From contig JAFXWI010000061.1 of the NCBI GenBank assembly GCA_017542915.1, positions 1 through 36,066 on the forward strand: 36,066 nt of DNA. The letters run 5' to 3'. Both the position numbers and the translations under genes were made by a program. Positions 3,432 through 23,871 of the stretch are shown piece by piece. The notes under the pieces were generated by a model. That model saw nothing but the letters and a program-made list of their open reading frames with translations. It did no database searches and was not told where the DNA came from. Position 1 is the first letter of the stretch, and every line of letters starts with the position of its first letter. Origin of the DNA: Paludibacteraceae bacterium. Its GTDB lineage: Bacteria; Bacteroidota; Bacteroidia; Bacteroidales; Paludibacteraceae.

Positions 3432-3451
3432 ATTGATAATTGATAATTGAT

Positions 3452-5292: not shown

Positions 5293-5301
5293 AGTAAAGG
5301 A

Positions 5302-5443: not shown

Positions 5444-5484
5444 ATAAATTTTATTAAAATTTAAAAATTTAAAATTACACAATT

Positions 5485-5883: not shown

Positions 5884-5889
5884 ATTTTA

Positions 5890-5950
5890 GATAACACGGA
5901 GCTGCTCTCTCTGTTTGTCGGAGGGTAGCTCCCTGTTGTTATCACCTTTT
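5890..5950 (+). terminator. Strong hairpin after hcp copy 2 (terminator or attenuator)
   Basis: GATAACA (5890-5896) pairs with TGTTATC (5937-5943) and GGAGCT (5898-5903) pairs with AGCTCC (5927-5932), forming a two-part stem with a small internal loop. A CCTTTT tail follows at 5945-5950. The weak U-tract suggests partial termination, which would leave more message for the upstream sheath and tube genes than for the downstream spike and baseplate genes. Confidence 0.55.
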
Positions 5951-5964
5951 ATACCCCAACGATC

Positions 5965-6363
5965 GTGGCACTATTAACTAAACTGAAGATACAGGACGTT
6001 TCGGATCCGTACTTGGTAGTAGGGTTCCGATGTCGTCATAGCCGTAAGCATAACGGCTTTCATCCGACTACAAGCCCTGCCTGTGAACAGATAGAGATAA
6101 CGGTTGTCGCTCCCTTGGATGATAATTTCTTGTTCTACGAGTGGTTTGTCAATCATAGCAAGCAGTCGGGATCGCTGTCCTATGAACTGCCTGTTTCACC
6201 GCAGAACGGAAACGGAGAGAAACGCGTGATTGAGTTCTCGGACGCAGGATGTTTGTCAGTTAGCGAGCATTATGATGTTCGTGACAATAACCGCAGGTTG
6301 ATCACCATCGTGATTGTACCCGACGAAGTGAAGATAGATGATATAGATGTCAAACATCTTTGA
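5965..6363 (+). CDS. Divergent Hcp-like protein (TssD family), GTG start
   Basis: A 132-residue protein that can be laid over the Hcp copies by eye: N-terminal strands (KLKIQDVSDPYLVVGFRC), a central strand EQIEITVVAP, a helix DNFLFYEWFV, then the strand pair around RVIEFSDAGCLSVSEHYDV and a last strand TIVIVPDEV. The GIPRGG loop of the true Hcps is replaced by a His- and Pro-rich segment (RKHNGFHPTTSPACE). Translation appears to start at GTG 5965. It may form an adaptor ring between the Hcp tube and VgrG, or cap the tube, much as phage tails use special end proteins; this is inference. The 12-base gap to the next gene suggests the two act together. Confidence 0.6.
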   Translation: MALLTKLKIQDVSDPYLVVGFRCRHSRKHNGFHPTTSPACEQIEITVVAPLDDNFLFYEWFVNHSKQSGSLSYELPVSPQNGNGEKRVIEFSDAGCLSVSEHYDVRDNNRRLITIVIVPDEVKIDDIDVKHL

Positions 6364-6853: not shown

Positions 6854-9800
6854 ATGACATTCCTACTCATACTCAAATCCGACACGGACTCGGCTGAAAT
6901 GGTATCCAAAAACCAGCATAAGGATATTAAGCTGAAAGATGTAGCCTGCGAACTATGGTTGCATGAACTCAGTTATCAGAAGAAGATCTTCCAGCCCGGT
7001 ATGGTACTCGCCAAACTGCAACTCAAACGCAAGGAGTACCCCGTGGACCAGAAAAACATAGGTATCCCGACCGAGGATATAATCAACCATTTTAAGGATA
7101 ATGTGCTGAAAGTAACCCGTGACGGCAAGGACGTTGCGACGGACTATTATATATATAAGGTGTTACCCGAATTTAGGAGGGACAGCGATGCGAACCAATA
7201 CGTGGAGCTGACCTGCTACTGTTATAGCCGAGATCATAAACTGACGCTTCACCCGTACAGCAAGATGTATGTGAATAAGAAACTGGTGGGCGATCTGTCC
7301 AAGAGCGGCAAGGACGGTATCATCCAAACGGAGATGGACGGCATTCTGCAGAAAGCCGGATTTGACGAAAAGACCATCGATTGCAGCTCTCTTCGGTTCC
7401 TCAAATATATCACCAAGCCGGAGAAGAAAGACGAGAAAGGCAATGTGGTACAGAAGGAGGAGCGCAAGGAGTTCATCCAGCCCTATCTGGTGCAATACAA
7501 TGAGAGTTTCTATGACTTCCTCGCCCGTACGGCTAACCGCTGCGGTGAGTTCATGTACCATGACCAAGGTATACTGCATATCGGTCTGCCGGTTACCCCG
7601 AGCGACAAAGTGCGTACCATAGACGAGCAGAAAGTCTATTCCTACCGCTATCAGAGTTACGGCGAGTCGATCATTGAGCCCTCTCCGGTCTATGTGGATA
7701 GTTTGGGTATGGGCGATTCGCAGAAAGGCAAAGGTCAGTTCGCTTCCGGTGACGGCTATTTCTACTACGACGAGTTGCCTATTGATGAGTATTTGGGACT
7801 CGTGCTGACCAAGGATAAGTTTGCTAATTTCACCGATGAGTTTTTCGGCAGAACCCGAACCCATATCGAGGCGTTCAGTAATTTCCTGACGCAGCCTACT
7901 TATGGTGCGGTTCTCGGAGCAATTGCCGGTGCTGAGGTTACGAATGCTGCCCTTTGCTATGCGGCCGTAGATAACAAGAACGCCGACGGAAACAAACTCT
8001 ATATCAAACCGGCTACCGATGAGCATAAAGACGGCGATACCGTCCGCGTGTATGGCTCGATGCTCAATAACGAGGTGCAGGGCTATAACTACGATCATGC
8101 GCAGAACCTCAATAGTAAGTTCTACCAGTTTGTCAATAAATGCAGTCATAATATCGCCAAGACGCTCATCGAGGTGGAGACAGGTGTCGATATGCCTGCC
8201 TATGGTTTGGGTGAAGAGGTGGTTTTCAATAACCAGAACTGCGTCGTCATCGGTGTGGAGGAAGCGCTGATGTCCGATCATACGGAGGAGGTAGCACGCG
8301 GTCAGCGTCTACTATTGGAGCCGCTGTACAGCGCACCGGTCAAAGGGTCGGATACCAAACTCTCGCTGTACTGTCCGCCTCCTACAGTACCTTTCGCACG
8401 CGAGGTAGGCGTTCAGCGTGCTTTCGTAGCCAAGAACGGCGATCCGCAGGGTCTGGGACGTGTCTGCATCCGCTATCCGTGGCAGCAGGCGGGTGACGAA
8501 CCCTCTCCGTGGGTACGTATGGCGATGCCCTTCGCACCGAATAACCCGCCCGTGGGAGGAGCAGGAATGTTCTTCGAACCGGAGGTAGGCGATGAGGTGG
8601 TCGTTGATTATGAGAACGGTAATATAGAGCACCCGATCATCACCGGTTCGCTCTATTCTCCTCGTAACGCGGCTCCGAGCACCACGCCAAGAGAGACGCG
8701 GAGTCTCAAAACAGGTCGTGAGCGCAGGATCTCGTCCGAAAAAGGACACTCGCTTATCTTCACGGATAGCGATATGGCATCGCATTTCGCGACCAGTTTC
8801 TGGCCCGGATACAAAACGCTGACGACTGTCGTAGGTATGCTTCCGGTAATAGGAACGGACATCCGCTTCGGCGAAAACGATCCCGTCTCCGGCGGTGTCA
8901 CCTTATGCGACGCATGGGGTCTGTACCGTATCAGTGCTTCTTCTACCGACCGTAATATCACGATCATGTCGCCCTTTGGCGATATAATGCTGAACGCCTA
9001 TACCGGCATCACCATCTCTGCACCGAACGGAGAAGTGAAGATAGCCGGAAAGAATGTGACCATCGAGGCAGGTAATGAGTTGAAACTGGTTTCGGGTAAG
9101 AATATCGACGATAAATGGGATGCCAGTTCCCTTGCTGAAAAAGCCGGCTATGCAGCCCTTGCGACTGTGGCAGATGGTATTATAGGCAGTTTAGTGGCTC
9201 CGATCTCCGATATATCTCTTGTCCGTACGGTATTTGAGACCTTCCTCAGACCGGTAGCCGGTACGATGACTGTTCACTCGGGTCGCTTCCTGCTCTTAAA
9301 TGCCGGCAGCACGCACGCTGAGATACCTAACAAGGGTCTGAACATCACGGGTCTGAAGAACAAAGAAGGCAACCATGCCCAAACAATCAAACTGAGGGAT
9401 ACTTTGGCATTCATCGATACAAGCGTGAACACTCTGGTCGAAGATTATGTCACGAACTATAACAAAGCAGCAGGTATCTTGAAAGCAGTTACGAGCGTTT
9501 CGTATTTTGCCAATGTAACAGAGCCTACTCGGGATGAGATCATTAACAAAGCTTTTGAAGGCAACAGGATAGAGCAAGCTAATTTCACATATACCGGAAA
9601 TTATCTTGAGGTTTATGATGATATTTTAAATAGTATCAATTCATTTATAGACCAGGTTAAAGAGTTGAGGAAGATTTGCGATAAATTCGTAGCAGGCGAG
9701 ACTCTTGGAAAAGCCAGTGAAGGACGTTCTTATTTCGCCAAGGAAATGAAATCCGTGTTAAAGGATGCGAAGTCAGACCTACCGGATTTTATTCAAGCAA

Positions 9801-10303
9801 TCCTTAATAAGACGGAGAAGTTCACCGTACTGGAGAAGATGGTGGGATCATTTGCAGAGGATTGTACATACCTTACCCGCTTTTTGGCGGTGAAACTGAT
9901 CGAAGAGACCAAATTATTGGATCGTGATCCGGTGGAGAAAATACAATCACCGAAGTTGTTCTTAACGGCTGATGATTATAAGAACAATGAGACATGGAAC
10001 AAGTACATCGATCAGTTGGTGCCGTATGACTATGAGTCTTATGCAGGTCTCACTTCTTGGGAATCGATTCAGAAATGGTTCTCCGCACTCTTCCCGAATA
10101 CAAAACGAGTTCTGCAGAATAACGTCTGGGATGGTAAATGGTATAGCGATCGTAATATCTGGGATTATTGCAAGAATGGTGAAATCCTCATGTCGGACAA
10201 GAATGGAAAAGAGACCATCAGCATCGTCAACGGCGCCCTCACCCGTACGCCTAATCAGGACGGATATATCGAACAAACCAAAGATATAATGCGAAGCTTG
10301 TAA
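6854..10303 (+). CDS. tssI: VgrG spike protein (TssI) with long C-terminal extension
   Basis: Trimeric spike at the tip of the Hcp tube. Of 1149 residues, about 1-500 correspond to the gp27-like base. Residues about 510-625 are the gp5-like OB domain, seen as GRVCIRYPWQQ, SPWVRMAMPF, FFEPEVGDEVVVDYENGN and HPIITGSLY. A needle-like segment with NGEVKIAGKNVTIEAGNEL follows at about 720-760. From about 770 to the end there are roughly 380 more residues: a hydrophobic stretch (AALATVADGIIGSLV), a short return to needle-like sequence, then a mostly helical Lys/Glu-rich region and an aromatic C-terminus. Classic VgrGs are 600-700 residues, so this tail may be a fused cargo domain or a docking platform. 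No catalytic motif is recognised in it. Confidence 0.85.
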   Translation: MTFLLILKSDTDSAEMVSKNQHKDIKLKDVACELWLHELSYQKKIFQPGMVLAKLQLKRKEYPVDQKNIGIPTEDIINHFKDNVLKVTRDGKDVATDYYIYKVLPEFRRDSDANQYVELTCYCYSRDHKLTLHPYSKMYVNKKLVGDLSKSGKDGIIQTEMDGILQKAGFDEKTIDCSSLRFLKYITKPEKKDEKGNVVQKEERKEFIQPYLVQYNESFYDFLARTANRCGEFMYHDQGILHIGLPVTPSDKVRTIDEQKVYSYRYQSYGESIIEPSPVYVDSLGMGDSQKGKGQFASGDGYFYYDELPIDEYLGLVLTKDKFANFTDEFFGRTRTHIEAFSNFLTQPTYGAVLGAIAGAEVTNAALCYAAVDNKNADGNKLYIKPATDEHKDGDTVRVYGSMLNNEVQGYNYDHAQNLNSKFYQFVNKCSHNIAKTLIEVETGVDMPAYGLGEEVVFNNQNCVVIGVEEALMSDHTEEVARGQRLLLEPLYSAPVKGSDTKLSLYCPPPTVPFAREVGVQRAFVAKNGDPQGLGRVCIRYPWQQAGDEPSPWVRMAMPFAPNNPPVGGAGMFFEPEVGDEVVVDYENGNIEHPIITGSLYSPRNAAPSTTPRETRSLKTGRERRISSEKGHSLIFTDSDMASHFATSFWPGYKTLTTVVGMLPVIGTDIRFGENDPVSGGVTLCDAWGLYRISASSTDRNITIMSPFGDIMLNAYTGITISAPNGEVKIAGKNVTIEAGNELKLVSGKNIDDKWDASSLAEKAGYAALATVADGIIGSLVAPISDISLVRTVFETFLRPVAGTMTVHSGRFLLLNAGSTHAEIPNKGLNITGLKNKEGNHAQTIKLRDTLAFIDTSVNTLVEDYVTNYNKAAGILKAVTSVSYFANVTEPTRDEIINKAFEGNRIEQANFTYTGNYLEVYDDILNSINSFIDQVKELRKICDKFVAGETLGKASEGRSYFAKEMKSVLKDAKSDLPDFIQAILNKTEKFTVLEKMVGSFAEDCTYLTRFLAVKLIEETKLLDRDPVEKIQSPKLFLTADDYKNNETWNKYIDQLVPYDYESYAGLTSWESIQKWFSALFPNTKRVLQNNVWDGKWYSDRNIWDYCKNGEILMSDKNGKETISIVNGALTRTPNQDGYIEQTKDIMRSL

Positions 10304-12203: not shown

Positions 12204-12599
12204 ATGGGAAAGTTTGTATGTCAAGGAGCAATGATGCAGTGCAGCTTCGGTATGACACCGGCTCCCCTCGCAGTGATAGACCCGATGCGTCCGAAACTGA
12301 GTAGTTCGCTGCCCATAGCTAACATTATGGATTTTGTACCGATGACCAATATCCCATCTTTCGGAATGTGTCAATCGATGTCTAATCCTTCCGTAGCTTC
12401 AGCTACTGCTGCGGCTTTAGGAGTGCTCACTCCGATGCCTTGTATACCGGTGACAGCCTCACCATGGTCACCCGGAGGACAACTCAAAGTGTGCAATTTT
12501 CCGGTGCTGCTGGATAACTGCAAATGTATGTGTACTTGGGGAGGACAGATCTCCTTTACTTTCCCCGGTAACGCCCTGCCTACCACGGAGGCGAAATAA
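12204..12599 (+). CDS. DUF4280 PAAR-like spike tip protein
   Basis: 131 residues matching the DUF4280 PAAR-like family: N-terminal FVCQGAMMQCSFGM, a Pro- and Met-rich middle with conserved cysteines (FGMCQS, MPCIPVTASPW, GGQLKVCNFPVLL) and a C-terminal CMCTWGGQISFTFPG. Members sit at the sharp tip of T6SS or extracellular contractile injection spikes; the Cys and possibly other ligands could bind a metal, as in PAAR proteins. It starts 2 bases after the needle-like gene. No toxin domain is fused to it, so any effector would have to be delivered by another part or encoded elsewhere. Confidence 0.8.
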   Translation: MGKFVCQGAMMQCSFGMTPAPLAVIDPMRPKLSSSLPIANIMDFVPMTNIPSFGMCQSMSNPSVASATAAALGVLTPMPCIPVTASPWSPGGQLKVCNFPVLLDNCKCMCTWGGQISFTFPGNALPTTEAK

Positions 12600-12633
12600 T
12601 CAATACTAACCGAATAAACGAACGTAGAAAAAT

Positions 12634-13338: not shown

Positions 13339-14487
13339 ATGCCCGAAGAGGTCTTTACACGGTTGTCATGGTTTCGGAGTGAGCGCGTATCGCAAGCCCG
13401 AGTGATGGTAGTGGGCTGCGGAGCCCTCGGTAACGAGGTGCTCAAGAACTTGGTTCTCTTTGGCGTACAGCATCTCGTGGTGGTCGATTTTGACCGCGTG
13501 GAGAGCTCTAACCTCAGTCGCTCTGTGCTCTTTACGCGCGAGGACGCTCAGCTCCACGCCCGTAAGATCGATGCGGTGAAAGCAAGCATCGAGCGCATCA
13601 ACCCCTCAGCGGAGGTGGTGACCCTCTTCGGAGATATAGCCTATGAGGTCGGTTTAGGGTGGTTTAGAGGGGTCGATGTAGTCATCGGATGTGTCGATAA
13701 CCGCTGGGCGCGGTATTGCATCAACCGTCTCTGTATGCGAGCCGGAAAACCTTGGGTGGACGGCGGTATAGATGGTTTGGAAGGCACCGTACGGGTCTTC
13801 ATCCCGGGTGAGAACTGCTACGCCTGTAACCTCGGTCCGGAGGGACTCAAAGACCTCAAGCGACGAATGCCCTGCTCGGGTATCATCCGTCGCAACGAAG
13901 CCGCCGGAAGGGCTGCAACGACTCCCGTCATCGCTTCCGTCATCGGGGCGGTGCAGGTACAGGAAGCCCTGAAACTGATCCATCGCGAGCAGCTGGAGAG
14001 CGGAGAACTGACGAGTTTATGCGGACGGATGTTTTGCTACGAAGGACAGCACCTGACCACCCGTACGGTGGACTTCAAGGCCTACGATGACGACTGTCCT
14101 GTCCATGAGCGATGGGAACCTGTCACGGACTCTGACCTCACGATCAAGCATACGGTGAGACAGTGTCTGGACGAGCTGCGACGATTGACCGGAGAGGCGC
14201 ATCCGGAGGTGGTGCTCAACGACTGTTTTGTGGACTATGTGGAGTCGCGCCGAACGGGCGAACAAGTACCGGTGATGTGTCCGGGAAGGGAGGTAGAAAG
14301 CCGCGTAGAGCAGGACTCGCCTTTGAGGGGCAGCCTCCTCGGCGAACTGTACCAACACGAATACCGGAAACTGGACGACGCCTTCCCTTATCCGGAGATG
14401 AGCTTGGAGCAGGTCGGTGTTCCTGCAAGAGACGTTCTTTGGGTGCATACATCGGACAAAGACCATTATATAGCCTTAAACGGCTAA
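13339..14487 (+). CDS. E1-like ubiquitin-activating enzyme (ThiF/MoeB/UBA fold)
   Basis: Adenylates the C-terminal glycine of a ubiquitin-like protein. The 382-residue protein has the nucleotide motif GCGALG (26-31), the VVDFD/SNLSRS signature (Asp50, Asp52; 57-62), the conserved Asp120 in GCVDN, a zinc knuckle CYAC (160-163) whose partner pair is CPVH (253-256, a His in place of the usual second Cys), and MPCSG with Cys179, the position of catalytic Cys in E1s that form thioesters. TTPVIASVIGAVQVQEALKL (194-213) is the typical helix. The last 120 residues are an extra domain not found in ThiF or MoeB; by analogy with eukaryotic E1s it might present the E2. Placed between spike and baseplate genes, with no thiamine or molybdopterin genes near. 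A MoeB-like enzyme is the alternative, but the nearby E2 argues against it. Confidence 0.85.
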   Translation: MPEEVFTRLSWFRSERVSQARVMVVGCGALGNEVLKNLVLFGVQHLVVVDFDRVESSNLSRSVLFTREDAQLHARKIDAVKASIERINPSAEVVTLFGDIAYEVGLGWFRGVDVVIGCVDNRWARYCINRLCMRAGKPWVDGGIDGLEGTVRVFIPGENCYACNLGPEGLKDLKRRMPCSGIIRRNEAAGRAATTPVIASVIGAVQVQEALKLIHREQLESGELTSLCGRMFCYEGQHLTTRTVDFKAYDDDCPVHERWEPVTDSDLTIKHTVRQCLDELRRLTGEAHPEVVLNDCFVDYVESRRTGEQVPVMCPGREVESRVEQDSPLRGSLLGELYQHEYRKLDDAFPYPEMSLEQVGVPARDVLWVHTSDKDHYIALNG

Positions 14488-14508
14488 GAACCGAAAAATA
14501 AATAGTAC

Positions 14509-15285
14509 ATGCTAAAGGAGCAAATAGATATTAACCTGTCGGAGATCAGCGCGGAGATGCTGGTGAACTACCTCTATCCCGATTTGTCTGACCGCTGGAT
14601 AGTGCAGGCGGAAGGTACCTTCTACCGCAACTATAACAGCGATCTTCTGGCGTATGATGACGAGGCAGCGGTAGTGCAACTCTCGCGGGACAGCTTCTGT
14701 CAATTATTACCGCAGGGATTGCTCTATCGGGCAGCAGAGAGAGGCAAGGTGAACTCCGAGAAAATCATGGCGCGTAAACGCCTGTTGATGGACTTGTTTC
14801 AGCCCTTCGACACCTTCGCTTTCCGTTGTCGCCTCAATCTCGAGAGAGAGGTCTCCTCGCTCTTAGAGACTCGGTTACAGGAGATCCTCTCCCGCTATTT
14901 CGGATTCGATCTGGCGTCGGAACAGAACCATTATATCCGTGAGACGGCGGTACTTCTGCCTTTCGTGAGCCATCTGCGCGGAGACCTCTATTTCGTTCGC
15001 GATCTGCTCTCTTCGCTCTTTAAATGCGAGGTGCAGCTGACGATCGGACGATACAGCGAGACCGATAACACCCGTTCTTGGTTGCCCATGGCGCGATACG
15101 AGATGATCATGCCGGATCTCTCCGCAGAGGAGTATAACCGCTTGATGAAGGACGTCCGTCCCTTGAACGAGTTCGTATGCGAATGGTTTATGCCGATGGA
15201 GGCGAAGTGCTTCATCGACATCCGATGGAAGGACATCGACCTGCCTGAAGAACCTGTACTGAATTATAACACACATTTGAAATAA
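14509..15285 (+). CDS. tssG: T6SS baseplate wedge protein TssG
   Basis: 258-residue cytosolic protein that I assign to TssG. Family-like features are YRAAERGKVNSEKIMARKR, FDTFAFRCRLNLEREVSSLLE, a long central helix pair, and LPFVSHLRGDLYFVRDLLSSLF followed by the beta strand CEVQLTIG, which in TssG precede the barrel domain. TssG forms the baseplate wedge with TssF2 and TssE, and contacts TssK. It is shorter than most TssG proteins (about 300-330), with the C-terminal barrel apparently compact. It lies immediately before tssK, a common order. The match is from pattern only and weaker than for TssF or TssK. Confidence 0.7.
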   Translation: MLKEQIDINLSEISAEMLVNYLYPDLSDRWIVQAEGTFYRNYNSDLLAYDDEAAVVQLSRDSFCQLLPQGLLYRAAERGKVNSEKIMARKRLLMDLFQPFDTFAFRCRLNLEREVSSLLETRLQEILSRYFGFDLASEQNHYIRETAVLLPFVSHLRGDLYFVRDLLSSLFKCEVQLTIGRYSETDNTRSWLPMARYEMIMPDLSAEEYNRLMKDVRPLNEFVCEWFMPMEAKCFIDIRWKDIDLPEEPVLNYNTHLK

Positions 15286-15303
15286 ATATAAATCCTAAAT
15301 AAA

Positions 15304-16446
15304 ATGTTGGATCTTAACGCACGAATCAATTGGAGACCGGGAATGCAGCTCACAGCGCAGACTTTCCTCGAGATGGACAGCAACCTGAATTTCAGGCAGC
15401 AGACTGCCATCAGGGCTGCTCTCGGTGAACATTGTATTGGTTTGCTACCCGGACTGCCTTTCTCTGCCGAAGGGGTGTTCTACACCAATAAGTATGAGAT
15501 AGACCGTCTGCAGATGACTGCTATTCTTCCTTCCGGACGAATCATACAAGTGGACGAACCCGTCAGCATCGCTGTTCCGCTGCTCTACGGTACGACCTAT
15601 TATCTCACCGTCGGTTTCGGAGATGGCCAGACGCCGTTCGAGAAAGAAGGAGTGCCTTATATCCGTCCGCAGTACAGCTATGCGATCATGTCGAGCGAGG
15701 AGCTGAAGGAGGTGGATGTGATGCCGATCACGAGGTTTACCGTCAATAACGGCGATATATCGGTGGATAGCAGTTATATCCCCCCTTGTCTGCTCTTGTC
15801 CGCCAATAGTGCCTACGAAAGCTATCATCAGCGGCTGACGGATCTGCTGCGCACCCTCTCCGAGCATGCGCATCTCAGAGAAGGAGACGGTAAACGCTCC
15901 TTGATGCGCTATTTCTTCCTCATGAAGAGTTGCGACCTGCAGGGACGTGTGTCCGAGTATGTCCGTATGCTGCACGAAATAGCCCAAGCGGTCGATTATT
16001 TCATCATGGCGCCTTATGCCGAGCTGCCTGCTGAGATCTTACGTCCCGATCAGGTGGATATTGCCCAATGGCTGGATTGGTTACTGACCTATCTCACCGG
16101 CGCTAACACCGTGCTGGACGGACTCGTCTTGGAGGATGATACGATCGATTATGAGGCGCTGCTTGCGCAGGCTAAACAGGAGTTGTACGACCGGCTGAAC
16201 CCCGAGTTGTACGAGAAACTGCTGCTCCAGATCAAGGACGAACTGCGCGAGGAGATCAGCAAGACGCTCACCGAGACCCTCACGGCGTATATGAACGAGA
16301 CCCTCAAACCCGAGCTGGAGAAACTCATCTCCGACAACCTGTACGAGCGGATGTACGACAAACTCTACAACGACCTGTACGAGCGTCTCTATAATGCCCT
16401 CCATGTGCCTGATCCCGAAGAGATCAAGTTTATACCATCTATTTAA
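15304..16446 (+). CDS. tssK: T6SS baseplate-membrane adaptor TssK
   Basis: TssK connects the baseplate wedges to the membrane complex; in phages its relative is a receptor-binding protein. The 380-residue protein begins with the TssK pattern INWRPGMQLTAQTFLEMD and has the conserved centre YIPPCLLLSAN (159-169), followed by a helical bundle. From about 290 to 370 it has an unusual Tyr/Leu/Glu-rich run of short repeats (ELYDRLNPELYEKL, LYERMYDKLYNDLYERLYN), probably a long coiled coil at the place where TssK usually has a small globular C-terminal domain that docks to the membrane complex. If so, docking may differ here, in keeping with the unusual membrane genes downstream. It ends 6 bases before tssE. 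Confidence 0.8.
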   Translation: MLDLNARINWRPGMQLTAQTFLEMDSNLNFRQQTAIRAALGEHCIGLLPGLPFSAEGVFYTNKYEIDRLQMTAILPSGRIIQVDEPVSIAVPLLYGTTYYLTVGFGDGQTPFEKEGVPYIRPQYSYAIMSSEELKEVDVMPITRFTVNNGDISVDSSYIPPCLLLSANSAYESYHQRLTDLLRTLSEHAHLREGDGKRSLMRYFFLMKSCDLQGRVSEYVRMLHEIAQAVDYFIMAPYAELPAEILRPDQVDIAQWLDWLLTYLTGANTVLDGLVLEDDTIDYEALLAQAKQELYDRLNPELYEKLLLQIKDELREEISKTLTETLTAYMNETLKPELEKLISDNLYERMYDKLYNDLYERLYNALHVPDPEEIKFIPSI

Positions 16447-16452
16447 CGGATT

Positions 16453-16905
16453 ATGATCGGATTGATTGCACCATTATATGTGACGAAGACCGGCTTGCAG
16501 CAGGCTACCACCATCAAGGAGTCCATCGACTCGTTCTTGGCACTGCTCCTCTCTACGGTTTGTGGAGAGACCTGCATCGACAAGCGATTCGGTTTTGTGT
16601 TCAATAACGTGCGGTTTGAGATATTTAATGAGCAGCAGGGTGTGGTCTATAACTCGGCACCCGATGATGCTACCAATGATGCGAGCCTTTATACCAAGAA
16701 GATCTCCGGTAACTCACGAAATCTCAATACCTTCGCAGCGGAACTCAAAGCGGCAGTGGAGCGTTATGAACAGCGTCTGGAAGATGTCAACGCGACGATG
16801 TCCTATGTGCGTAACGAACGGAAGATATATGTGACTATCACCGGCATCATTGCCGAAACGAAAGAGAAATATACATACGAAACGACCCTCAAAATCTGGA
16901 ATTAA
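16453..16905 (+). CDS. tssE: T6SS baseplate protein TssE (gp25-like)
   Basis: 150-residue gp25-family protein. The signature is the helix IKESIDSFLALLLSTVCGE followed by the strand region DKRFGFVFNN (about 24-51), and a later strand YVRNERKIYVTITGIIAE (about 114-131). TssE joins the wedge to the first sheath ring and triggers sheath assembly. The N-terminus MIGLIAPLYVTKTGLQ is slightly unusual. Located 6 bases after tssK and 3 bases before tssF, in the usual baseplate cluster. Length is normal. Confidence 0.82.
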   Translation: MIGLIAPLYVTKTGLQQATTIKESIDSFLALLLSTVCGETCIDKRFGFVFNNVRFEIFNEQQGVVYNSAPDDATNDASLYTKKISGNSRNLNTFAAELKAAVERYEQRLEDVNATMSYVRNERKIYVTITGIIAETKEKYTYETTLKIWN

Positions 16906-16908
16906 TTC

Positions 16909-18597
16909 ATGAAAGAGGATATTTATAGTACCCGTCAACGAGCTACTGATCTGCTCAACGAGACCCTTTCTATCTGGCAGAAAGGCGATCATATTGACCA
17001 ATTGGAAGGATTAGCGAAAGACCCTGTCTTCTCGCTTCTGATGACTGCGTTAGCGTACCGCGCCAACGAGATGGACGGTGAGATCGAGCGTCTGCGTCAG
17101 GATGTACTCGAAGAGTTTGCGCGTATGATGATGCCGTACGAGGCGGGTCATGCTATTCCGGCTACTACGATCGTAGGGATGGAGCTGCAGAGCGATGTAC
17201 CTGAGTTGATGCTGGACGAGACCGGTACGTTTGCGATGCAGGAAGGCGGTTATCCCTTCATGCCGTTGCTCCGTTCGCGGCTGGTCAACGCCGACATCAG
17301 TTCGGTAACCCGTCTGGACGGACGCCGATGGAAAGTGGTGCTGTCCTTCCAAAACCCCGTCTCTGACCTCTCCGGTATCACGTTCGCTATCCGCGACGCG
17401 CGGTTTAAGGATGTCAAGATCACGGTGAACGGACATCAGCTGCTGCCCCTCGTCAAACCTTGGCATTATGCCAACATGCCGCTGCAGACCTGTTTCTCGC
17501 TCTCGTCAATGTTATATAATCATGCCCAGATGTTTCAGGCTTCGCTGATACCTCTGGAGCTTTATGCGCGGCAGAACGTAGCGCTGTTCAGCATCGGTCG
17601 TAACGGTACGGCGCATCTCTTGCCCGTGGAGTCCGACAGGGTAGAGCTGACCTTTGATTTTACGGGTATTCCCTCTGACTACGCTTTTAACAAGAGTAAT
17701 ATCGTGCTCAATGCAGTGCTGCTGGTTAACGCGCGGCTCTCTACCGCTACGCTGACCGCTACGAAACCCTTGGTACGTGTGTCCGGAGACCAACTGATGT
17801 ACCTCCTGCCCCCTGCCTCCGAGCAGCTCTTCGGCAAGACACCCGTCACCGTACGGCGTGTGGCAGCAGACCGGTTTAACAAAGGTGCCCTGCGCCGTTT
17901 GGTGAACTGCCTCTCCGCGAAACTCGACAGCGACTACTACGCCTTCCTCAGCATCGATGATGTCAACGTCAAGAATACCCTCAATCGTATTCACGAAGGC
18001 TTGTCGCAACTCGCCAAATCCGTGAGCAGCGATACCTATTCCCTCTATTCGGGAGTATATCTGATGTTGGAGCGTAGTGCGTTGGCAAATCATGCGGTCA
18101 GTCTGGATATTAACTATCTGACAACCTCCGGTGCTGCTATCAACGACGCTCTCAATCAGGAGAGTACGTTCACCGCACCGGCAGGAATCAAATCGTCCTC
18201 GGTGACGCAGATTGCCAACCCCGTATTTGGTGTGGACGAGACCACCAATGCCGAGAACTCACAGGCTCTCCTGCGCTATTTCCTCGTTACCGGTGATAGG
18301 ATAGTGACCCCTGCGGACATCAAACTGTTCTGCTACACGCAGCTCATGAATATCTATTCCATCGGTCCTGATCTGGTCAATGGGATAGAGGTCAAGAGCC
18401 ATCAACGGGTAGATCAGCAGGAGAGCGGGTATTGCATCCGAGTCAGTATCTACCTGCAGGACAATAGTTTTATTCGCCGCAGTTTTGAGGACAGGATACC
18501 TCAGGCGGAAATGTTGCTGCAGACCATGATGGAGGTGCGCAGCTCACAGATTTATCCTATTTACGTAGCTATTCATATTAAGGAAGAACAAATATAA
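16909..18597 (+). CDS. tssF: T6SS baseplate wedge protein TssF
   Basis: 562-residue core baseplate protein, gp6-like, which dimerises in the wedge with TssG and TssE. Recognition rests on the N-terminal LEGLAKDPVFSLLMTALAYR, followed by EIERLRQDVLEEFARMMMPY and the AIPATTIVGM segment, matching the TssF pattern where the residues after a conserved acidic helix read P-x-P-(S/A). The middle has typical beta-rich sandwich sequence (RWKVVLSFQNPVSDLSGI) and the C-terminal half contains TSGAAINDALNQESTF and a gp6-like domain around RYFLVTGDRIVTPADIKLFC. Coupled closely with tssE (3-base gap) and with the downstream ubiquitin-like gene (5-base gap). Confidence 0.85.
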   Translation: MKEDIYSTRQRATDLLNETLSIWQKGDHIDQLEGLAKDPVFSLLMTALAYRANEMDGEIERLRQDVLEEFARMMMPYEAGHAIPATTIVGMELQSDVPELMLDETGTFAMQEGGYPFMPLLRSRLVNADISSVTRLDGRRWKVVLSFQNPVSDLSGITFAIRDARFKDVKITVNGHQLLPLVKPWHYANMPLQTCFSLSSMLYNHAQMFQASLIPLELYARQNVALFSIGRNGTAHLLPVESDRVELTFDFTGIPSDYAFNKSNIVLNAVLLVNARLSTATLTATKPLVRVSGDQLMYLLPPASEQLFGKTPVTVRRVAADRFNKGALRRLVNCLSAKLDSDYYAFLSIDDVNVKNTLNRIHEGLSQLAKSVSSDTYSLYSGVYLMLERSALANHAVSLDINYLTTSGAAINDALNQESTFTAPAGIKSSSVTQIANPVFGVDETTNAENSQALLRYFLVTGDRIVTPADIKLFCYTQLMNIYSIGPDLVNGIEVKSHQRVDQQESGYCIRVSIYLQDNSFIRRSFEDRIPQAEMLLQTMMEVRSSQIYPIYVAIHIKEEQI

Positions 18598-18602
18598 CGC
18601 AT

Positions 18603-18926
18603 ATGGAAGAAAAAGATTTCTTGTTAGACATCGTCTATAAGAACAAAACGGTTCGATTCAAGGTGGTCAACCCCGAGGCACCCCTATCGACCCTCATGAC
18701 GAATCTGCGTCACGCAATCGGTCAGGACGGTAAACTCATCTTTGACTACCCGTCCATCGATGCTACCGGTGCGCCGCTGGACTATTTCTTCGGCAAGGAA
18801 GATCCGGAGGTACACGAGATCCGTGTATTGAGACCGCGAATTGGTAAAACCGACCAGACTTTGGCGGATTATAACATACAAAATGGAGACACCGTGTTCC
18901 TTATCCCCGACCCGTTTCCGGGATAA
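18603..18926 (+). CDS. Ubiquitin-like protein (Ubl)
   Basis: 107-residue beta-grasp protein, the likely modifier of the conjugation system. The N-terminal hairpin LLDIVYKNKTVRFKVVNPEA, the helix LSTLMTNLRHAIG, and the C-terminal TLADYNIQNGDTVFLI (about 86-101) can be laid directly on ubiquitin, whose matching segment reads TLSDYNIQKESTLHLV. A central insert (IDATGAPLDYFFGKEDPEV) makes it longer than ubiquitin. It ends in PDPFPG: one terminal glycine immediately before the stop, so no processing protease is needed. Most conjugated Ubls end in Gly-Gly. YukD/EsaB-like proteins of type VII secretion are a related possibility, but here the neighbours are E1, E2 and RING. The gene lies 5 bases after tssF and overlaps the E2 gene. 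Confidence 0.85.
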   Translation: MEEKDFLLDIVYKNKTVRFKVVNPEAPLSTLMTNLRHAIGQDGKLIFDYPSIDATGAPLDYFFGKEDPEVHEIRVLRPRIGKTDQTLADYNIQNGDTVFLIPDPFPG

Positions 18927-19467
18927 ACCGCTCAGTGGACGCAACCGACGTTTGCTCTACGAATGGGAAAAGATAGCAGAGGGCTTGTCCGCCCGTTCCG
19001 ACATCCGCTGGAGGGTCAAACGGACGAATGCCGAAGGGCTGCCGGTAAGTTATCTCGTGGACTATCAGATCCGCAGTATATGCAGCGTGACGGACGTAGA
19101 GAGACTCGGACAGAAAGGGGTAGAGAACAAGCCCCTGTATGCCGATCATTTTCGGATGATCATCGAGCTGCCGGATGCGTTCCCCTGCGTTGATGGAGCA
19201 CCGGTGTACCGGTTCCTGACCGAAGATGAAGAGGGCAACCCTCTGCCGCATCCGTGGCACCCGAATATACGCTTCTTCGGATCGATGGCAGGGCGCGTAT
19301 GTCTCAATAGGACGGATACGTTTACCGACCTCGTCTGGGGCATCAAACGTGTAGCTACGTACCTCACCTATGAGCGATACCACGCCCTCTCGGAACCGCC
19401 CTATCCCGAGGACTTACAGGTTGCCTCATGGGTCATCCGGCAAGCCGAACCACAAGGTTGGATTTGA
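18883..19467 (+). CDS. E2-like ubiquitin-conjugating enzyme
   Basis: 194 residues from ATG 18883, which is the first ATG in frame and overlaps the Ubl gene by 44 bases; a TTG at 18841 is possible but less likely. The UBC fold is clear: DHFRMIIELPDAFP (strands), APVYRFLTED, then PWHPNIRFF with HPN at 126-128, and GRVCLN with the candidate active-site Cys140, followed by Trp152 (DLVWGIKRVATYLTYE helix). The C-terminal PPYPEDLQVASWVIRQ corresponds to the region of the usual PLN motif, without that Asn. HPN plus Cys in this arrangement is the pattern of eukaryotic E2 enzymes and of many bacterial E2s, so I judge it catalytically competent. Cytosolic. Partners: E1 at 13339-14487 and the RING protein at 21508-23871. 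Confidence 0.85.
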   Translation: METPCSLSPTRFRDKPLSGRNRRLLYEWEKIAEGLSARSDIRWRVKRTNAEGLPVSYLVDYQIRSICSVTDVERLGQKGVENKPLYADHFRMIIELPDAFPCVDGAPVYRFLTEDEEGNPLPHPWHPNIRFFGSMAGRVCLNRTDTFTDLVWGIKRVATYLTYERYHALSEPPYPEDLQVASWVIRQAEPQGWI

Positions 19468-19469
19468 GA

Positions 19470-19518
19470 AATGTAAAATGTCAAATATCAAATATCAAAT
19501 ATCAAATGTCAAATCTAA
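19470..19518 (+). repeat. TCAAATA short tandem repeat containing a start codon
   Basis: The gap after the E2 gene is made of a 7-base unit (TCAAATA/TCAAATG/TCAAATC) repeated five or six times. The ATG at 19506, the best start for the next gene, lies in the last units, so the first residues (MSNLK) are written by repeat sequence. Similar short-period tracts occur at 2822-2855, 3433-3450 and 24951-25017. Confidence 0.65.
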
Positions 19519-20645
19519 AATATAAAATATTTTTCGTATTCCTGTGTCTGACGACGCTGACGATGGTTGCGCAGACCACCAAACCGGTGACGCTGAGCGA
19601 CAAGACTCCTTTTAGCGAGGAACTGACAATCCCGCAGCCGAAAGGGGACGGAGTCAAAGTGACCGCTTCCCTGCAGTTCGACGAAACGGCGAACACCGTC
19701 TCCGTCACCATGAAGTCGGAGCGTAAGCTGTTTGTCTTCTGGGAGGAGATCAGTTACCGCAAGGCGTTTAAGAACAAACGTCTCTGCACCGAGAAGCTGT
19801 CGTATAATATGACCGGAAACACCGCCGATCAGTTCCATCGAATCCCCTATTTCTACAAGGCGCTGCCGAAGCCCCATCGTAAGAAATATACCTTTCATCC
19901 TTGGACAGAGACCGAGGGCCTGAAACCGCAGGGTGCTACGAGGCAGATCATCAATGACTCCCTCACCCGGACTTTTGCGGTCTCCGACACCGCCGAGCTC
20001 TTCTCGCTTCGTTTGCGAGACATCCTCTTTATCGACGAGGTGAAGCAGAAAGGAACGGCCCGTTATTATGCCATCTCGTATGGTATGGATGTCAATACCG
20101 AATACCGCATCACGCTCCAACGCAACCCCTGTTTCGGACTCGATCCGCAGATCGTAGCGGCGCAGAATGCACGGGATGCTGTCGTCCGTAGCTATGATGC
20201 ATTCAAATCTATCTATACCGATGGAGTGGTCAATAGCGAAGAAGGAGAGAAACTCTTCCATCAGCTGCAGGATGCTCTCCAGATCCAGTTCCCGGTCAGC
20301 GAGGACAGCAGTGCTTGTGCGGATCTGCAAGATGCGCATACGCAGTATAACCAGTATATCGATTCCATCAAAGCGCTTTCCGTCACCCTTCAACTACCGG
20401 CTGACGAGCGCTCCCTGAACATCAAAATCATCCTCGCTAACTCGCGTACGATTGATAATAATGTCACACGTTGGCTCTCTACCAAGGATTATTTCGAGCG
20501 TTCGGATCTCGCGGAGCAATGCCGTGATATTATCTCCGATACGAAGAATATGATCTTACAGAACGGGGCACGTACCCAAGAAGAGAAAGACGCCGTTGCA
20601 GTGTTCAAAAAGGCAGAACAGTATTTTGACCGCACATGTCGCTGA
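19506..20645 (+). CDS. Secreted protein of the T6SS envelope module (unknown family)
   Basis: 379 residues from ATG 19506; an upstream ATG at 19428 lies inside the E2 gene and would ruin the signal peptide. The N-terminus MSNLKYKIFFVFLCLTTLTMVAQ looks like a signal peptide cut after Ala-Gln, so the mature protein is periplasmic or on the outer membrane. The first half is beta-rich (VKVTASLQFDETANTVSVTM) and the second half, from about 200, is helical with many charged residues and coiled-coil tendency (PQIVAAQNARDAVVRSY and later). No transmembrane segment after the signal. It overlaps the next gene by 10 bases. I do not recognise it; by position it may replace one of the periplasmic TssO, TssP or TssQ proteins of Bacteroidota T6SS. 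That is inference. Confidence 0.55.
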   Translation: MSNLKYKIFFVFLCLTTLTMVAQTTKPVTLSDKTPFSEELTIPQPKGDGVKVTASLQFDETANTVSVTMKSERKLFVFWEEISYRKAFKNKRLCTEKLSYNMTGNTADQFHRIPYFYKALPKPHRKKYTFHPWTETEGLKPQGATRQIINDSLTRTFAVSDTAELFSLRLRDILFIDEVKQKGTARYYAISYGMDVNTEYRITLQRNPCFGLDPQIVAAQNARDAVVRSYDAFKSIYTDGVVNSEEGEKLFHQLQDALQIQFPVSEDSSACADLQDAHTQYNQYIDSIKALSVTLQLPADERSLNIKIILANSRTIDNNVTRWLSTKDYFERSDLAEQCRDIISDTKNMILQNGARTQEEKDAVAVFKKAEQYFDRTCR

Positions 20646-21511
20646 TAAAGAGATACATACTCCTCCTTCTCCTCTGCTTATCCATCCCTTTGGCAGCGGA
20701 GGAAGCGAATGAAGAACAGCAATATTCATTGCAGTTCCAGACTGAGATGCGCGCTCAACTCGACAAACTGACGGCGGAGTTAGACCTGTTAGCGGAGGAT
20801 ACGAAAAAACAAACGACCATCACCGACAAGGATCTGAAGACCGCCTATTCCGTTCGGACGCTCGAAGCCAAAGCCCAGAGACTCAACCATCGGATGCAGT
20901 CTCTCAATGTCAAATGGGATGCCTTCAACGCCTCCTATCTCGGTTTCATCTCGGAGAACGATACCCTCATGGAGCTCATGGCGAAAGCACAACTGCTCAA
21001 GCAGTCGCTCTCCGACACCATTACTGCGCAGCAAACGAAATGTCAGGCAATCCGCGATTTCCTCGCTGCCGAGCAGATCGTCTTGACCCAAGATAGTATG
21101 TACAACCGGATTTACAAACAGGCCTTCCGGCTGTCTTTCATCCAGAAACTGACGCCCCAATTGGAGAAACTCAAGGCGAAAGAACAAGCGCATTTCACCC
21201 CTATTCAGGAGGCGTACGACAAAGCCAAAGCAGCTGCTTCCTCTGTCCCGCAACTCAAGGAAAGAGCCGAGCTTCTCAGTGAGAGTTTCTTTACCATCAA
21301 ATCGCGATCCGAGAAAATACAACAAATGCAATATATGCCCCTGATGCAGCGGTTTAAAGATTACCTGATAGGCTTTGCCTGCTTTGCAGTCATCTTTATG
21401 CTGTTTAATAATCTGACTACCAAATGGCAGGCTGCCAAACAAAAAAAAGAAGCCCTTAAGAAACAAGCCGAAATGCTTAGAAAGCAACAAAACGATTATC
21501 CCACCATATGA
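20636..21511 (+). CDS. Periplasmic coiled-coil protein with C-terminal membrane anchor
   Basis: 291 residues. MSLIKRYILLLLLCLSIPLAAEE is a signal peptide. Residues 30-235 are an almost continuous helical coiled coil (QTEMRAQLDKLTAELDLLAEDT; LEAKAQRLNHRMQSL; LTPQLEKLKAKEQAH). A single membrane segment (FKDYLIGFACFAVIFMLFNNL, about 240-260) is followed by a Lys-rich, Gln-rich cytosolic tail (AAKQKKEALKKQAEMLRKQQ). It therefore reaches from the periplasm across the inner membrane. Translation is coupled on both sides: 10-base overlap upstream and an ATGA overlap with the RING gene downstream. I infer a structural part of a membrane complex that spans the inner membrane. No family recognised. Confidence 0.55.
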   Translation: MSLIKRYILLLLLCLSIPLAAEEANEEQQYSLQFQTEMRAQLDKLTAELDLLAEDTKKQTTITDKDLKTAYSVRTLEAKAQRLNHRMQSLNVKWDAFNASYLGFISENDTLMELMAKAQLLKQSLSDTITAQQTKCQAIRDFLAAEQIVLTQDSMYNRIYKQAFRLSFIQKLTPQLEKLKAKEQAHFTPIQEAYDKAKAAASSVPQLKERAELLSESFFTIKSRSEKIQQMQYMPLMQRFKDYLIGFACFAVIFMLFNNLTTKWQAAKQKKEALKKQAEMLRKQQNDYPTI

Positions 21512-23871
21512 TAACTATCTCATCACATATGTCAAAACTCAAATACTTTGGTCTCGCGTGCATCGCGATGATCCTGTCGTCCTGCGAGGATCTCATCAAG
21601 AAATATATGGACACCGCGGACTTAGGAGATCTGGAAATGCTGGACTCGTATATCGGAGCCCCTAAATCCGATATGGAAGTGACTGATGTCACTTTCTCGC
21701 CCGACTACAAGACCTTCACCGTCTCTACCCGCCTTACCGATGGTGGTCCCGGGTTCTCCATCTCCGACACGACCATGGTGCGCACCGAGGTCGTGGAACT
21801 CATCGAGGGATTCCGAAGAACAGTGAGAGCCACACCGCGATTAGTGCAGATGAAGAATGTGGAGAGCGAGGAGGTGCAGCATTACGATCTGCGTATGCTC
21901 GTGCTGGTGGACAGAACATTGCCACAGGAACAACTCGAGAAGGTACAGCATTACTTACGCGAGATAAAGACGGTCTTTGATACGAACAATCTCTTTATCG
22001 TTTTCATGGACGGCGATAAGATCTCCAAACCTTATCCTGCTACCGACTATATCGTGGAGACCTATTTCAAGCGTGTGGATCAGCCCTATATCTATCTCTA
22101 TCGCGCGATGCAGGAGTGTCGCGAGAAAATAGTCAATAGAGAGGGCGTTTGGAAAGATGCCAAACGGTGCGTCATGCTCACTTTTGCAGCGGAGCGTACC
22201 TATGACGACAACTCCGACACGCCTTTCGACCCCGATCATTATGCCTATAAGGAGAAACTCGTCAGACGTCCGGCGAAAGACTCTACCTTCGTCGCTTATT
22301 ATATCAACATGGATAACCAGATGGCAGAGGAAGAGGGCGCTTCTCTCAGCGTGCCCTATATATTCTGCAATCTCAACGGAGGAGAGTATATCGTTGATTA
22401 CAACTGGATTGATCTGAAGCGGAAGATTTATGATATTTTCCAATTCGATTTTCCCGATAACCGCTTCACGTTTATCAACCCGGATTATAAGGTGTATCGA
22501 GGGGACCACAAGCAACTCACGCTTAATATCTATGACCGGAAGACGGACAAGTTAGTGGCTTCGTTCACGACCACCGTCTCGCTCGGAAATATCTTCAAAC
22601 CGATCATCGTCAACGGGCATAACGTTGCTTATGTCATCGCCCAAGGTGTACTGCTCGGACTTTTTATCCTGCTCTTCGTCTATTTCATGATGCAGATAGT
22701 CATTCCGGTCATCCGCTATATTATCTTCCGTCGGAAATATCTCCTCGTTTATACGGGACCGAACATGAGCGTTCATAATCATTCCGTGGGAGATACCTGC
22801 TATCTGTGCAAGGCGCCTTTCAAACCCGGGGATAAGATCGTTGCCAAATGTGAGCATACGATGCACGAAGAGTGCTGGGAGGAAAACGGCTATCATTGTC
22901 CCGAGTACAGCGACCGCTGCAAACATGGATCGCATTATTTCAACCATTACAACCTCTTTGACTCTCAGAACGCCTCCTTCTATATGCGGTGGATTATCAT
23001 GGCGATAGGAGCCTCTATCGTTTCTTGGCTCGGACTGACGCTCTATGTGCAGTTTGAGGTAGGACGGCGAATCTTACCGGCTTGGTTGATTCAGAATATG
23101 GGTCAGGTGCCTTTCTTGGGCTTGGTGATGAGTTTCTTCCTTGCCTTCGTTCTCTCTATCTTGGCGGTCGGCCCGCGTAGCTTGAGAGCGTGGGGGAATG
23201 TGCTGCTTCGTACCCTGATCGCATCCGCAATCAGTTATCTGTCCTTCCTGCTGATGGGACTTTTCATCTCCGTCTTGAAGATTACCGTCTTCCGTTCGTT
23301 CTTGGATGCGATACCTTGGATCATATCAAGCTTCGTGATCGTGATCGCTACTACGAAATATACCCGCGTTGTGTATAGCACTCGTGTAGTGGTCATCAGT
23401 GTGGTCATCGGACTCCTCTCTATGCTTGTATGGAATCTCTTCTATACTTTGTGCGAATTGGATTTCCGGGTTCTCCTGCTCTTCAGTTTCCTCTTCTATT
23501 ACCTGAGTATGACGATTAGTGTGGCTTCCGCTACACCTCGTTCCGAACGCTATTTCCTCAAGGTTGAAGGAGCGGTGAAGACCATGGATGTAGCGCTCTA
23601 TAAATGGCTGCGCGCAGCGCCGGACAAACCCGTCACCATCGGTAAATCCGTCGATTGCTCGCTCCAACTCTCGTGGGATCTGCAGTCCGACATAGCCCCT
23701 GTACAGGCGGAGATCCGCCTCCGTCGTAAGGTGCCTTACCTCATCCCGAAGCATACTGGAGTCTTCATGAGGAAACTGCCCTTGAAACCGAATCTGAGAA
23801 TCCGACTCGTTCACGGCAGGTCGTTCACTATCGGTAAAACGACCTTTACCTATGTCGAGAAAGACCGTTAA
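21508..23871 (+). CDS. Polytopic membrane protein with RING-H2-like and FHA-like domains (candidate E3)
   Basis: 787 residues from ATG 21508 (ATGA overlap); ATG 21529 gives a neater lipoprotein signal. Order: signal with lipobox LSSC; periplasmic domain (30-370) that is vWA-like at MLVLVDRT (130-137), weak evidence; TM1 (372-405); cytosolic cysteine cluster C431-x2-C434-x13-C448-x-H450-x2-H453-x2-C456-x7-C464-x6-C471, RING-H2-like with a wider last pair than the usual x2; six more TMs (491-675); C-terminal FHA-like domain (about 700-785) with VTIGKSVDCSLQLSW and FTIGKTTFTYV. The topology puts RING and FHA on the cytosolic side, where E2 is. FHA domains often read phosphothreonine; here the usual SxxH loop reads APVQAE, so binding may be lost. 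Inference: membrane platform and E3. No T6SS family recognised. Confidence 0.75.
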   Translation: MITISSHMSKLKYFGLACIAMILSSCEDLIKKYMDTADLGDLEMLDSYIGAPKSDMEVTDVTFSPDYKTFTVSTRLTDGGPGFSISDTTMVRTEVVELIEGFRRTVRATPRLVQMKNVESEEVQHYDLRMLVLVDRTLPQEQLEKVQHYLREIKTVFDTNNLFIVFMDGDKISKPYPATDYIVETYFKRVDQPYIYLYRAMQECREKIVNREGVWKDAKRCVMLTFAAERTYDDNSDTPFDPDHYAYKEKLVRRPAKDSTFVAYYINMDNQMAEEEGASLSVPYIFCNLNGGEYIVDYNWIDLKRKIYDIFQFDFPDNRFTFINPDYKVYRGDHKQLTLNIYDRKTDKLVASFTTTVSLGNIFKPIIVNGHNVAYVIAQGVLLGLFILLFVYFMMQIVIPVIRYIIFRRKYLLVYTGPNMSVHNHSVGDTCYLCKAPFKPGDKIVAKCEHTMHEECWEENGYHCPEYSDRCKHGSHYFNHYNLFDSQNASFYMRWIIMAIGASIVSWLGLTLYVQFEVGRRILPAWLIQNMGQVPFLGLVMSFFLAFVLSILAVGPRSLRAWGNVLLRTLIASAISYLSFLLMGLFISVLKITVFRSFLDAIPWIISSFVIVIATTKYTRVVYSTRVVVISVVIGLLSMLVWNLFYTLCELDFRVLLLFSFLFYYLSMTISVASATPRSERYFLKVEGAVKTMDVALYKWLRAAPDKPVTIGKSVDCSLQLSWDLQSDIAPVQAEIRLRRKVPYLIPKHTGVFMRKLPLKPNLRIRLVHGRSFTIGKTTFTYVEKDR

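Follow-up and report, generated by a model that had tools for sequence, protein, structure and literature searches.

A cassette of E1-, Ubl-, E2- and RING-type genes within a type VI secretion operon

We analyzed a 36,066-nucleotide stretch of contig JAFXWI010000061.1 from a Paludibacteraceae bacterium (referred to as the window), in which genes for an E1-like enzyme, a ubiquitin-like protein (Ubl), an E2-like enzyme and a predicted membrane protein that carries a RING-H2 and an FHA domain (RING/FHA protein) are interleaved with tssG, tssK, tssE and tssF of a type VI secretion system (T6SS) on the same strand. A single co-directional run of open reading frames (ORFs) on the forward strand extends from the gene for a ClpV-like ATPase (588) through that of the RING/FHA protein (23871). 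From the E1 gene onward, neighboring genes are separated by 3-21 bases or overlap by 4-44 bases, the largest overlap being that of the E2 ATG start with the end of the Ubl gene (44 nucleotides). The ORF map of the window therefore agrees with a preliminary description, which had reported the four genes as tightly mixed with tssG, tssK, tssE and tssF. The cassette and the baseplate genes are listed below.

13339..14487, +, E1-like activating enzyme, 382 amino acids (ThiF domain PF00899, 2.3e-52)
14509..15285, +, TssG-like baseplate protein, 258 amino acids (family profile matches the Pfam-named TssG of locus L102, 54.5 bits)
15304..16446, +, TssK-like baseplate protein (PF05936, 1.9e-7)
16453..16905, +, TssE-like protein, gp25 (PF04965, 6.2e-6; 26.4 bits, just below the cut-off of 27.2)
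16909..18597, +, TssF-like baseplate protein (family profile matches the Pfam-named TssF of L102, 86.7 bits)
18603..18926, +, Ubl, 107 amino acids, C-terminus PDPFPG with Gly as last residue (beta-grasp model)
18883..19467, +, E2-like conjugating enzyme, 194 amino acids, WHPN at 125-128 and Cys140 (UBC fold in models; profile)
19428..20645, +, p19428, 405 amino acids, N-terminal hydrophobic segment, likely exported or anchored (hydropathy; no Pfam match)
20636..21511, +, p20636, two hydrophobic segments, N-terminal and at 244-262 (hydropathy)
21508..23871, +, RING/FHA protein, candidate membrane E3 (RING ligands, Pfam, hydropathy)

The Pfam scan covered 29 ORFs of the window; TssG and TssF gave no direct match in it.

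Distribution and conservation of the cassette

When genome contigs from 84,980 species were scanned with the Ubl alignment, 169 stretches matched, and 77 of these encode a relative. Judged by accession prefix, the 77 loci come from 76 assemblies, L071 and L072 being from the same one. The hosts are Prevotella and its kin, Bacteroidaceae, Alistipes, Parabacteroides, Muribaculaceae, Paludibacteraceae and other Bacteroidales or Bacteroidia, mostly represented by metagenome-assembled genomes from gut and rumen. Isolates with the cassette include Xylanibacter ruminicola D31d, Prevotella ne3005, Mediterranea massiliensis, Millionella massiliensis and Caecibacteroides pullorum. The genome nearest to the window is G001, with an E1 that is 92% identical.

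The order E1-TssG-TssK-TssE-TssF-Ubl-E2-p19428-p20636-RING/FHA is identical throughout the 77 loci, as far as the contigs reach. While the Ubl is present in all 77 by construction, since it served as query, TssF and E2 were also found in 77, TssE in 76, TssK in 75, TssG in 74, and E1 and the RING/FHA protein in 73 each. p19428 occurs in 76 of the 77 loci, the sole miss being a contig end, and p20636, a separate gene in 68, forms a fusion with the RING/FHA protein in five (L017, L026, L041, L054, L056) and falls to contig ends in four. Apart from these five fusions, all misses are contig ends. The gene content upstream of E1 differs among the loci, and the cassette with its baseplate block is constant. 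The E1-Ubl-E2-RING set, with its order kept in 77 further loci and its candidate catalytic residues invariant (see below), is a constant component of one T6SS subtype; the preliminary description had argued against a chance neighbor.

Conservation was measured as mean pairwise identity on identical locus pairs. The three membrane proteins reached 38-41%, TssG/K/E/F 46-52%, E1 58%, E2 59% and the Ubl 78%, and the Ubl was more conserved than each of the others in 99.9-100% of the pairs. It also exceeded the DUF4280 protein encoded upstream of E1 (68% identity) in 91% of the pairs and Hcp2 (64%) in 83%. TssB and Ubl were about equal (80% and 76%; 21 pairs, as few loci reach TssB). Without correction for shared ancestry, the pairwise identities of E1, Ubl, E2 and the RING/FHA protein co-vary with those of TssG/K/E/F (r 0.67-0.87), and co-variation with DUF4280 is lower (r 0.47-0.63 over all genes). 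A nearly frozen Ubl among faster partners would fit a modifier with many contacts, but also a structural protein.

Features of the cassette proteins

Among sequences in the PDB, the best relative of E1 is the SUMO E1 UBA2 (1.3e-22, residues 14-167), which places it closer to SUMO/ubiquitin-type E1s than to MoeB (1.9e-17) or ThiF (4e-17); BubCD was matched weakly (2.7e-5) in the same search. The E1 also matches the E1-E2 models of PADLOC (1e-17). Cys118, Cys160, Cys163, Cys179, Cys253 and His256 are kept in all 72 near-full-length sequences (window included), and C160, C163, C253 and H256 likely form a Zn site. The candidate thioester residue, Cys179, was picked by position; we take it to correspond to the active Cys of UBA2. 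No fold could be assigned to the C-terminal ~130 amino acids, and no E1 was found among their five PDB matches up to E 10 that would point to a ubiquitin-fold domain.

In structure models, the E2 and Ubl candidates show UBC and ubiquitin-like folds, respectively, so that the assignments made in the preliminary description stand at the level of predicted fold. The E2 profile matched 46 PDB sequences (best 1.1e-4); 45 of them bear the name E2 or ubiquitin carrier, the remaining one being PEROXIN-4, and Cys140 aligns with the Cys of E2-25K. HPN and Cys are kept in all 78 near-full-length E2 sequences (window included). The Ubl is modeled as a single domain of the ubiquitin-like (beta-grasp) fold. 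With a limit of E 1, its profile matched 30 PDB sequences; polyubiquitin repeats, whose single domains are not significant, gave the lowest E-values (2e-8), and the best single-domain match is a ubiquitin variant (0.0039). The Ubl ends on Gly in 78/78 loci, and this terminal Gly is also found in 119 of the 120 listed out of 575 database relatives.

The RING/FHA protein shows a lipobox-like N-terminus, a hydrophobic segment at 381-399, RING-H2 at 431-471, hydrophobic segments up to 673 and FHA at 709-776. The eight RING zinc ligands are kept in 69/69 near-full-length sequences, the motif being present in all 74 proteins longer than 450 amino acids, and 60 of the 69 carry a lipobox-like N-terminus by a loose pattern. 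A vWA domain was matched by Pfam in the N-terminal region of relatives of this protein only. Simple hydropathy and flanking charge suggest that RING and FHA are cytosolic, with the lipobox-like N-terminus and the vWA-like region outside. The vWA of the relatives recalls the one reported for TssR, a likeness by domain name.

Distant cassettes with a JAB gene

JAB proteins are the peptidase class that releases Ubls. A JAB gene is present in five distant cassettes from four lineages, two of which sit in T6SS operons. In G159, one strand encodes ClpV-TssB-TssC-Hcp-VgrG-DUF4280-...-Ubl-E2-p19428-(p20636-like)-JAB-RING/FHA-E1-TssG-K-E-F. G042 is similar, with E1 and the baseplate genes following the RING/FHA protein. 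Both JAB proteins have the full JAMM motif (Pfam 7.7e-5, just over the cut-off, and 0.0048, below it). The family of G159 comprises only six genomes and was unusable as a wide sample. G014 encodes E1-Ubl-E2-JAB-RING/FHA and lacks TssC; its Ubl continues for four residues beyond the Gly, as would be expected if JAB matures it. In G314 and G408 the order is E1-Ubl-E2-JAB-vWA-(degenerate RING)-FHA. By eye, the degenerate RING position of the relatives in L100 and L101 looks somewhat U-box-like.

Two lineages occur in genomes with a system resembling extracellular contractile injection systems (eCIS), one of them 20-44 kb from it. In G314 the eCIS-like set lies on the other strand at, counted from E1, ~20 kb (sheath), ~22-24 kb (gp19-type tube), ~25 kb (VgrG-like spike), ~27 kb (gp25) and ~38 kb (AAA), and a PAAR gene is ~2 kb away. 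The sheath gene of G408 is ~43 kb from the cassette, and in G014 the set is on another contig, with only the sheath recognized by Pfam. All three cassette genomes without TssC have a sheath match (2/3 over the cut-off). The statistical case for an eCIS link is weak, because two of these genomes belong to one genus and 44 of 198 genomes of the phylum have sheath matches as background. The physical case rests on G314 and, more loosely, on G408.

Downstream of the cassette of G014, which has no T6SS there (L083, L096, L121), we noted a run of proteins with an 'FAEP'-like motif and a tandem-Ubl-like protein. A second JAMM motif was seen by eye in L096:6940-7794, and the run looks like another Ubl-linked system.

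Relation to other Bacteroidota T6SSs

Of 247 evenly sampled Bacteroidales genomes, 12 have TssC (PF17541; a fragment in G236), four E2 and three Ubl. All three Ubl genomes also have TssC and E2; the fourth E2 genome is G014. At the level of the phylum (345 genomes), TssC occurs in 23 and E2 in three, namely G001 and, without TssC, G314 and G408. As to whether homologous T6SS loci regularly lack the set, which the preliminary description had named as a check, the outcome is mixed: the set is fixed in one subtype, but only 3 of the 12 TssC genomes have it.

T6SSiii is reported to be anchored through TssNQOPR, with tssN located between tssK and tssG; TssN is described as an inner-membrane protein that binds TssK and whose cytosolic ubiquitin-like domain links this baseplate protein to the membrane complex (PMC10781749, Bongiovanni 2024). 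The words ThiF, RING and FHA are absent from the main text of that article. The window shares TssB, C, D, E, F, G, H, I and K with the T6SSiii described there, but TssN and TssO were not detected in it, and three other membrane or exported proteins and the Ubl cassette are found instead. A TssN profile search gave no match in the window or in the window-type loci as fetched. TssO (PF17561) had no match among the 29 window ORFs, no genome-wide search being made for it, and no named match to TssP, TssQ or TssR turned up among the window ORFs scanned with Pfam. Genome-wide tests covered 11 of the 12 TssC genomes, leaving out the fragment; from the genome of the window, the window alone was searched. 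TssN (PF17555) was found in none of the three cassette genomes (G001, G159, G042) and in five of the eight other TssC genomes, the RING/FHA protein in 3/3 and 0/8, respectively. TssN and the cassette occur together in none of the 11.

The three published T6SS architectures of human gut Bacteroidales are reported to all encode five proteins that include TssN, which the window does not show; a Prevotella stercorea T6SS and two loci outside the three architectures are listed as well (Coyne 2016). These additional loci could be of the same type as the window.

In a TssC tree of 14 cassette and 14 other rows, in which long branches were flagged, all cassette rows but one (13 of 14) group in a single clade (100/100), beside which stands the cassette-free G223 (85/92). 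L082 is separate from this clade with weak support. The distribution of the cassette needs two changes on this tree, and neither a single origin nor two gains could be established. TssF and TssG of G223 (L084, L091) resemble the window type; by eye, serine/threonine kinase and FHA-like genes adjoin its TssF, and the Ubl cassette is absent.

A model for Ubl conjugation at the baseplate and its alternatives

The cassette very probably encodes a genuine conjugation pathway that belongs to the T6SS, which suggests that attachment of a small protein tag is part of how this T6SS is built or controlled. In the model we prefer, E1 would adenylate Gly107 of the Ubl and take the Ubl over as a thioester, with Cys179 as candidate, and E2 would receive it on Cys140. 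The membrane vWA-RING-FHA protein would act as E3 through its cytosolic RING and guide the Ubl to some part of the T6SS at the docking site of baseplate and envelope complex. Ubl ligation would supply or license the connection between baseplate and envelope at the place where many Bacteroidota T6SSs have TssN. The model builds on the gene set and its order, the folds and family matches and the invariant residues, and predicts thioesters, membrane topology, ligation, a substrate and an effect. The preliminary description had considered assembly, anchoring, firing, recycling and cargo tagging. Among these, the anatomy favors the baseplate-membrane junction, because a membrane-fixed cytosolic E3 would be encoded beside baseplate genes in a T6SS without detected TssN. 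We give a probability of about 45% to this reading as a whole, that is, an E3-directed conjugation pathway of a distinct Bacteroidales T6SS acting at this junction.

Several observations weigh against it. The match of PF14446 (Prok-RING_1) to the RING region is sub-threshold (0.0032; 17.8 bits, cut-off 29.1), support for the RING in the PDB ends at E 0.4, and the RING ligands are lost in two relatives from eCIS genomes (L100:12347-14728 and L101:12325-14673). A strict JAMM motif is found neither in the window nor in the 77 loci as fetched, so the window clade shows no JAB; a loose pattern gave three unrelated-looking matches in window-type loci. The Ubl is less conserved than TssC (79% and 86%; 66 pairs, as few loci reach TssC). 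In a lysine scan of the four baseplate proteins only TssE K83 and TssK K197 were invariant, which is too weak to name either as acceptor, and no single lysine stands out. Furthermore, most sampled Bacteroidota T6SSs have no cassette, G223, G217 and G233 have TssC yet neither cassette nor TssN, and relatives in eCIS-like genomes indicate that the cassette is not tied to the T6SS alone.

A bolder version, which we regard as doubtful, holds that the free Ubl replaces the built-in ubiquitin-like domain of TssN: through its covalent attachment, the membrane RING protein would staple the baseplate to the envelope complex or license its docking there, and the same E1-Ubl-E2-(JAB)-RING module would serve T6SS and eCIS-like systems. 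That the Ubl might stand in for the TssN domain is suggested by fold class, missing TssN and gene context, and the sequence comparison is negative. The ends of the two look alike by eye, but hhalign gave a probability of 0.18-0.25% against TssN C-terminal domains and of 0.09-0.21% against full-length TssN, compared to 0.09-4.7% for 12 control profiles. A Ubl derived from a detached TssN domain was therefore rejected by sequence, and the idea was left at the level of fold only, because hhalign was no better than the controls.

Alternatively, the Ubl could be a structural subunit without covalent attachment, comparable to EccD, YukD or the TssN domain, with E1 and E2 merely holding or positioning it. 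We consider this unlikely in view of the invariant Cys of E1, Cys and HPN of E2 and terminal Gly of the Ubl, the RING ligands kept in 69/69 sequences and the JAB of distant cassettes. We also give little credit to a cargo or quality tag, in which conjugation would mark spike, Hcp or effectors before loading. The E1 gene does adjoin spike-tip and cargo-like genes (12204-13332), and a bacterial ISG15-like system is reported to attach ubiquitin-like proteins to the central tail fibre of phages (PMC11364771), an interesting parallel because T6SS spikes are tail-like. But the genes upstream of E1 vary by locus, unlike the cassette and the baseplate block.

That conjugation marks sheaths after contraction, or spent baseplates, for recycling by ClpV seems less probable still. 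The ClpV of the window lacks an insertion of the ordinary ClpV of L088 (see below), so its recruitment may differ, but in the distant cassette loci L082 and L093 ClpV has ordinary length. It is improbable that a Bil- or CBASS-like defense pathway tagging phage tails or incoming weapons is merely housed in the operon. The match of E1 to PADLOC models would agree with such a role, but PADLOC gave no match for Ubl, E2, RING protein, p19428 and p20636, plasmid and phage records held nothing that matched E2 with an E-value of 1e-3 or below, and the fixed order amid baseplate genes in 77 loci as well as the co-variation with T6SS genes speak against it. Sulfur transfer or cofactor synthesis of the MoeB/ThiF type, suggested by the ThiF superfamily membership of E1, is highly improbable, since no rhodanese or cofactor genes are among the Pfam matches listed for the 29 window ORFs and we know of no use for an E2 and a RING protein in it.

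Comparison to known conjugation systems

Burroughs and colleagues reportedly predicted prokaryotic RING-containing E1-E2-Ubl(-JAB) systems in 2011. These share E1, E2 with HPN, YukD-like Ubl and RING with the window, and JAB with the distant cassettes; what may set the window apart is that its set is built into a T6SS core operon. Type II cyclic oligonucleotide-based anti-phage signaling systems (CBASS) have a fused E2-E1 (Cap2) together with a CD-NTase, whereas E1 and E2 of the window are separate genes, with no CD-NTase among the Pfam matches listed for the 29 ORFs. EccD and YukD of type VII secretion are also ubiquitin-like domains serving a secretion machine, although we know of no E1, E2 or RING in these systems. 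To our knowledge, all bacterial E1-E2-Ubl systems with a tested role act in anti-phage defense.

Prokaryotic E1-E2-Ubl-JAB sets had been predicted earlier (Iyer 2006). The Bil system (BilA Ubl, BilB E2, BilC JAB, BilD E1) has E1, E2 and Ubl in common with the window, as well as a tail-like machine as possible target. However, BilA has two Ubl domains and Bil includes a JAB (PMC11354881). The window encodes one Ubl domain (107 amino acids), lacks a JAB and has, as part of its T6SS operon, a membrane protein with a RING. For Bub, no anti-phage protection has been shown (PMC13373217). The phage tail assembly proteins TAPI (Ubl) and TAPK (JAB) likewise combine a terminal-Gly Ubl near a tail-building module with a JAB, but no E2 or RING is described there, unlike in our cassette (PMC1779556). 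Among the matches listed in Creative Commons-licensed PMC literature, no paper on such a pathway within a T6SS was seen, as judged by titles, the openings of abstracts and counts of terms.

Taken together, the parts and the pathway class are known, and the fixed integration into a secretion machine appears to be new. A native substrate is likely and should be easy to look for, because the genes are fixed in the core operon of that machine. If the model holds, protein tagging would join the known means of assembling or controlling T6SSs. Gut and rumen commensals would then offer a small ubiquitin-like cascade that includes a membrane RING, and it would become testable whether ubiquitin-like ligation also builds protein machines.

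Other genes of the operon

Upstream of E1, the operon contains the following T6SS genes.

588..2822, +, ClpV-like ATPase, 744 amino acids (AAA_2 1.7e-58, ClpB_D2-small; best 25 of 48 Pfam families)
2964..3431, +, TssB-like protein (family profile matches L102:5916-6359, 171.5 bits; that protein is Pfam-named VipA, 2.9e-5)
3440..4822, +, TssC, sheath (PF17541, 1.4e-100)
4900..6363, +, three Hcp (TssD) genes at 4900-5292, 5485-5883 and 5965-6363 (PF17642)
6854..10303, +, VgrG, 1149 amino acids (PF04717, 1.2e-16)
12204..12599, +, DUF4280 protein, candidate spike tip, which we take to be PAAR-like (PF14107, 3.7e-30)

The set of sheath, tube, spike, baseplate and ClpV is thus complete in the window, with TssF, TssG and TssB recognized through profiles only; TssB had no Pfam match in the window itself. 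The window ClpV lacks an insertion of ~90 amino acids between the two AAA modules that is carried by ClpV of the ordinary locus L088. It is equally short in L086 (744 amino acids) and L009 (742), and of ordinary length in the distant cassette loci L082 and L093 (856 and 845); L080 has a ClpV-like match of 910 amino acids. A search of seven window proteins against PHROGs gave zero matches. Between VgrG and DUF4280, ORF 10318-12201 encodes a 627-amino-acid protein without Pfam or PHROGs match, a candidate cargo or adaptor. The protein encoded at 12634-13332, adjoining the DUF4280 gene, has a ribosome-recycling-factor-like domain (PF01765, 2e-16); relatives are present in 51 of the 89 sequences compared (window counted), in some of them on the opposite strand.

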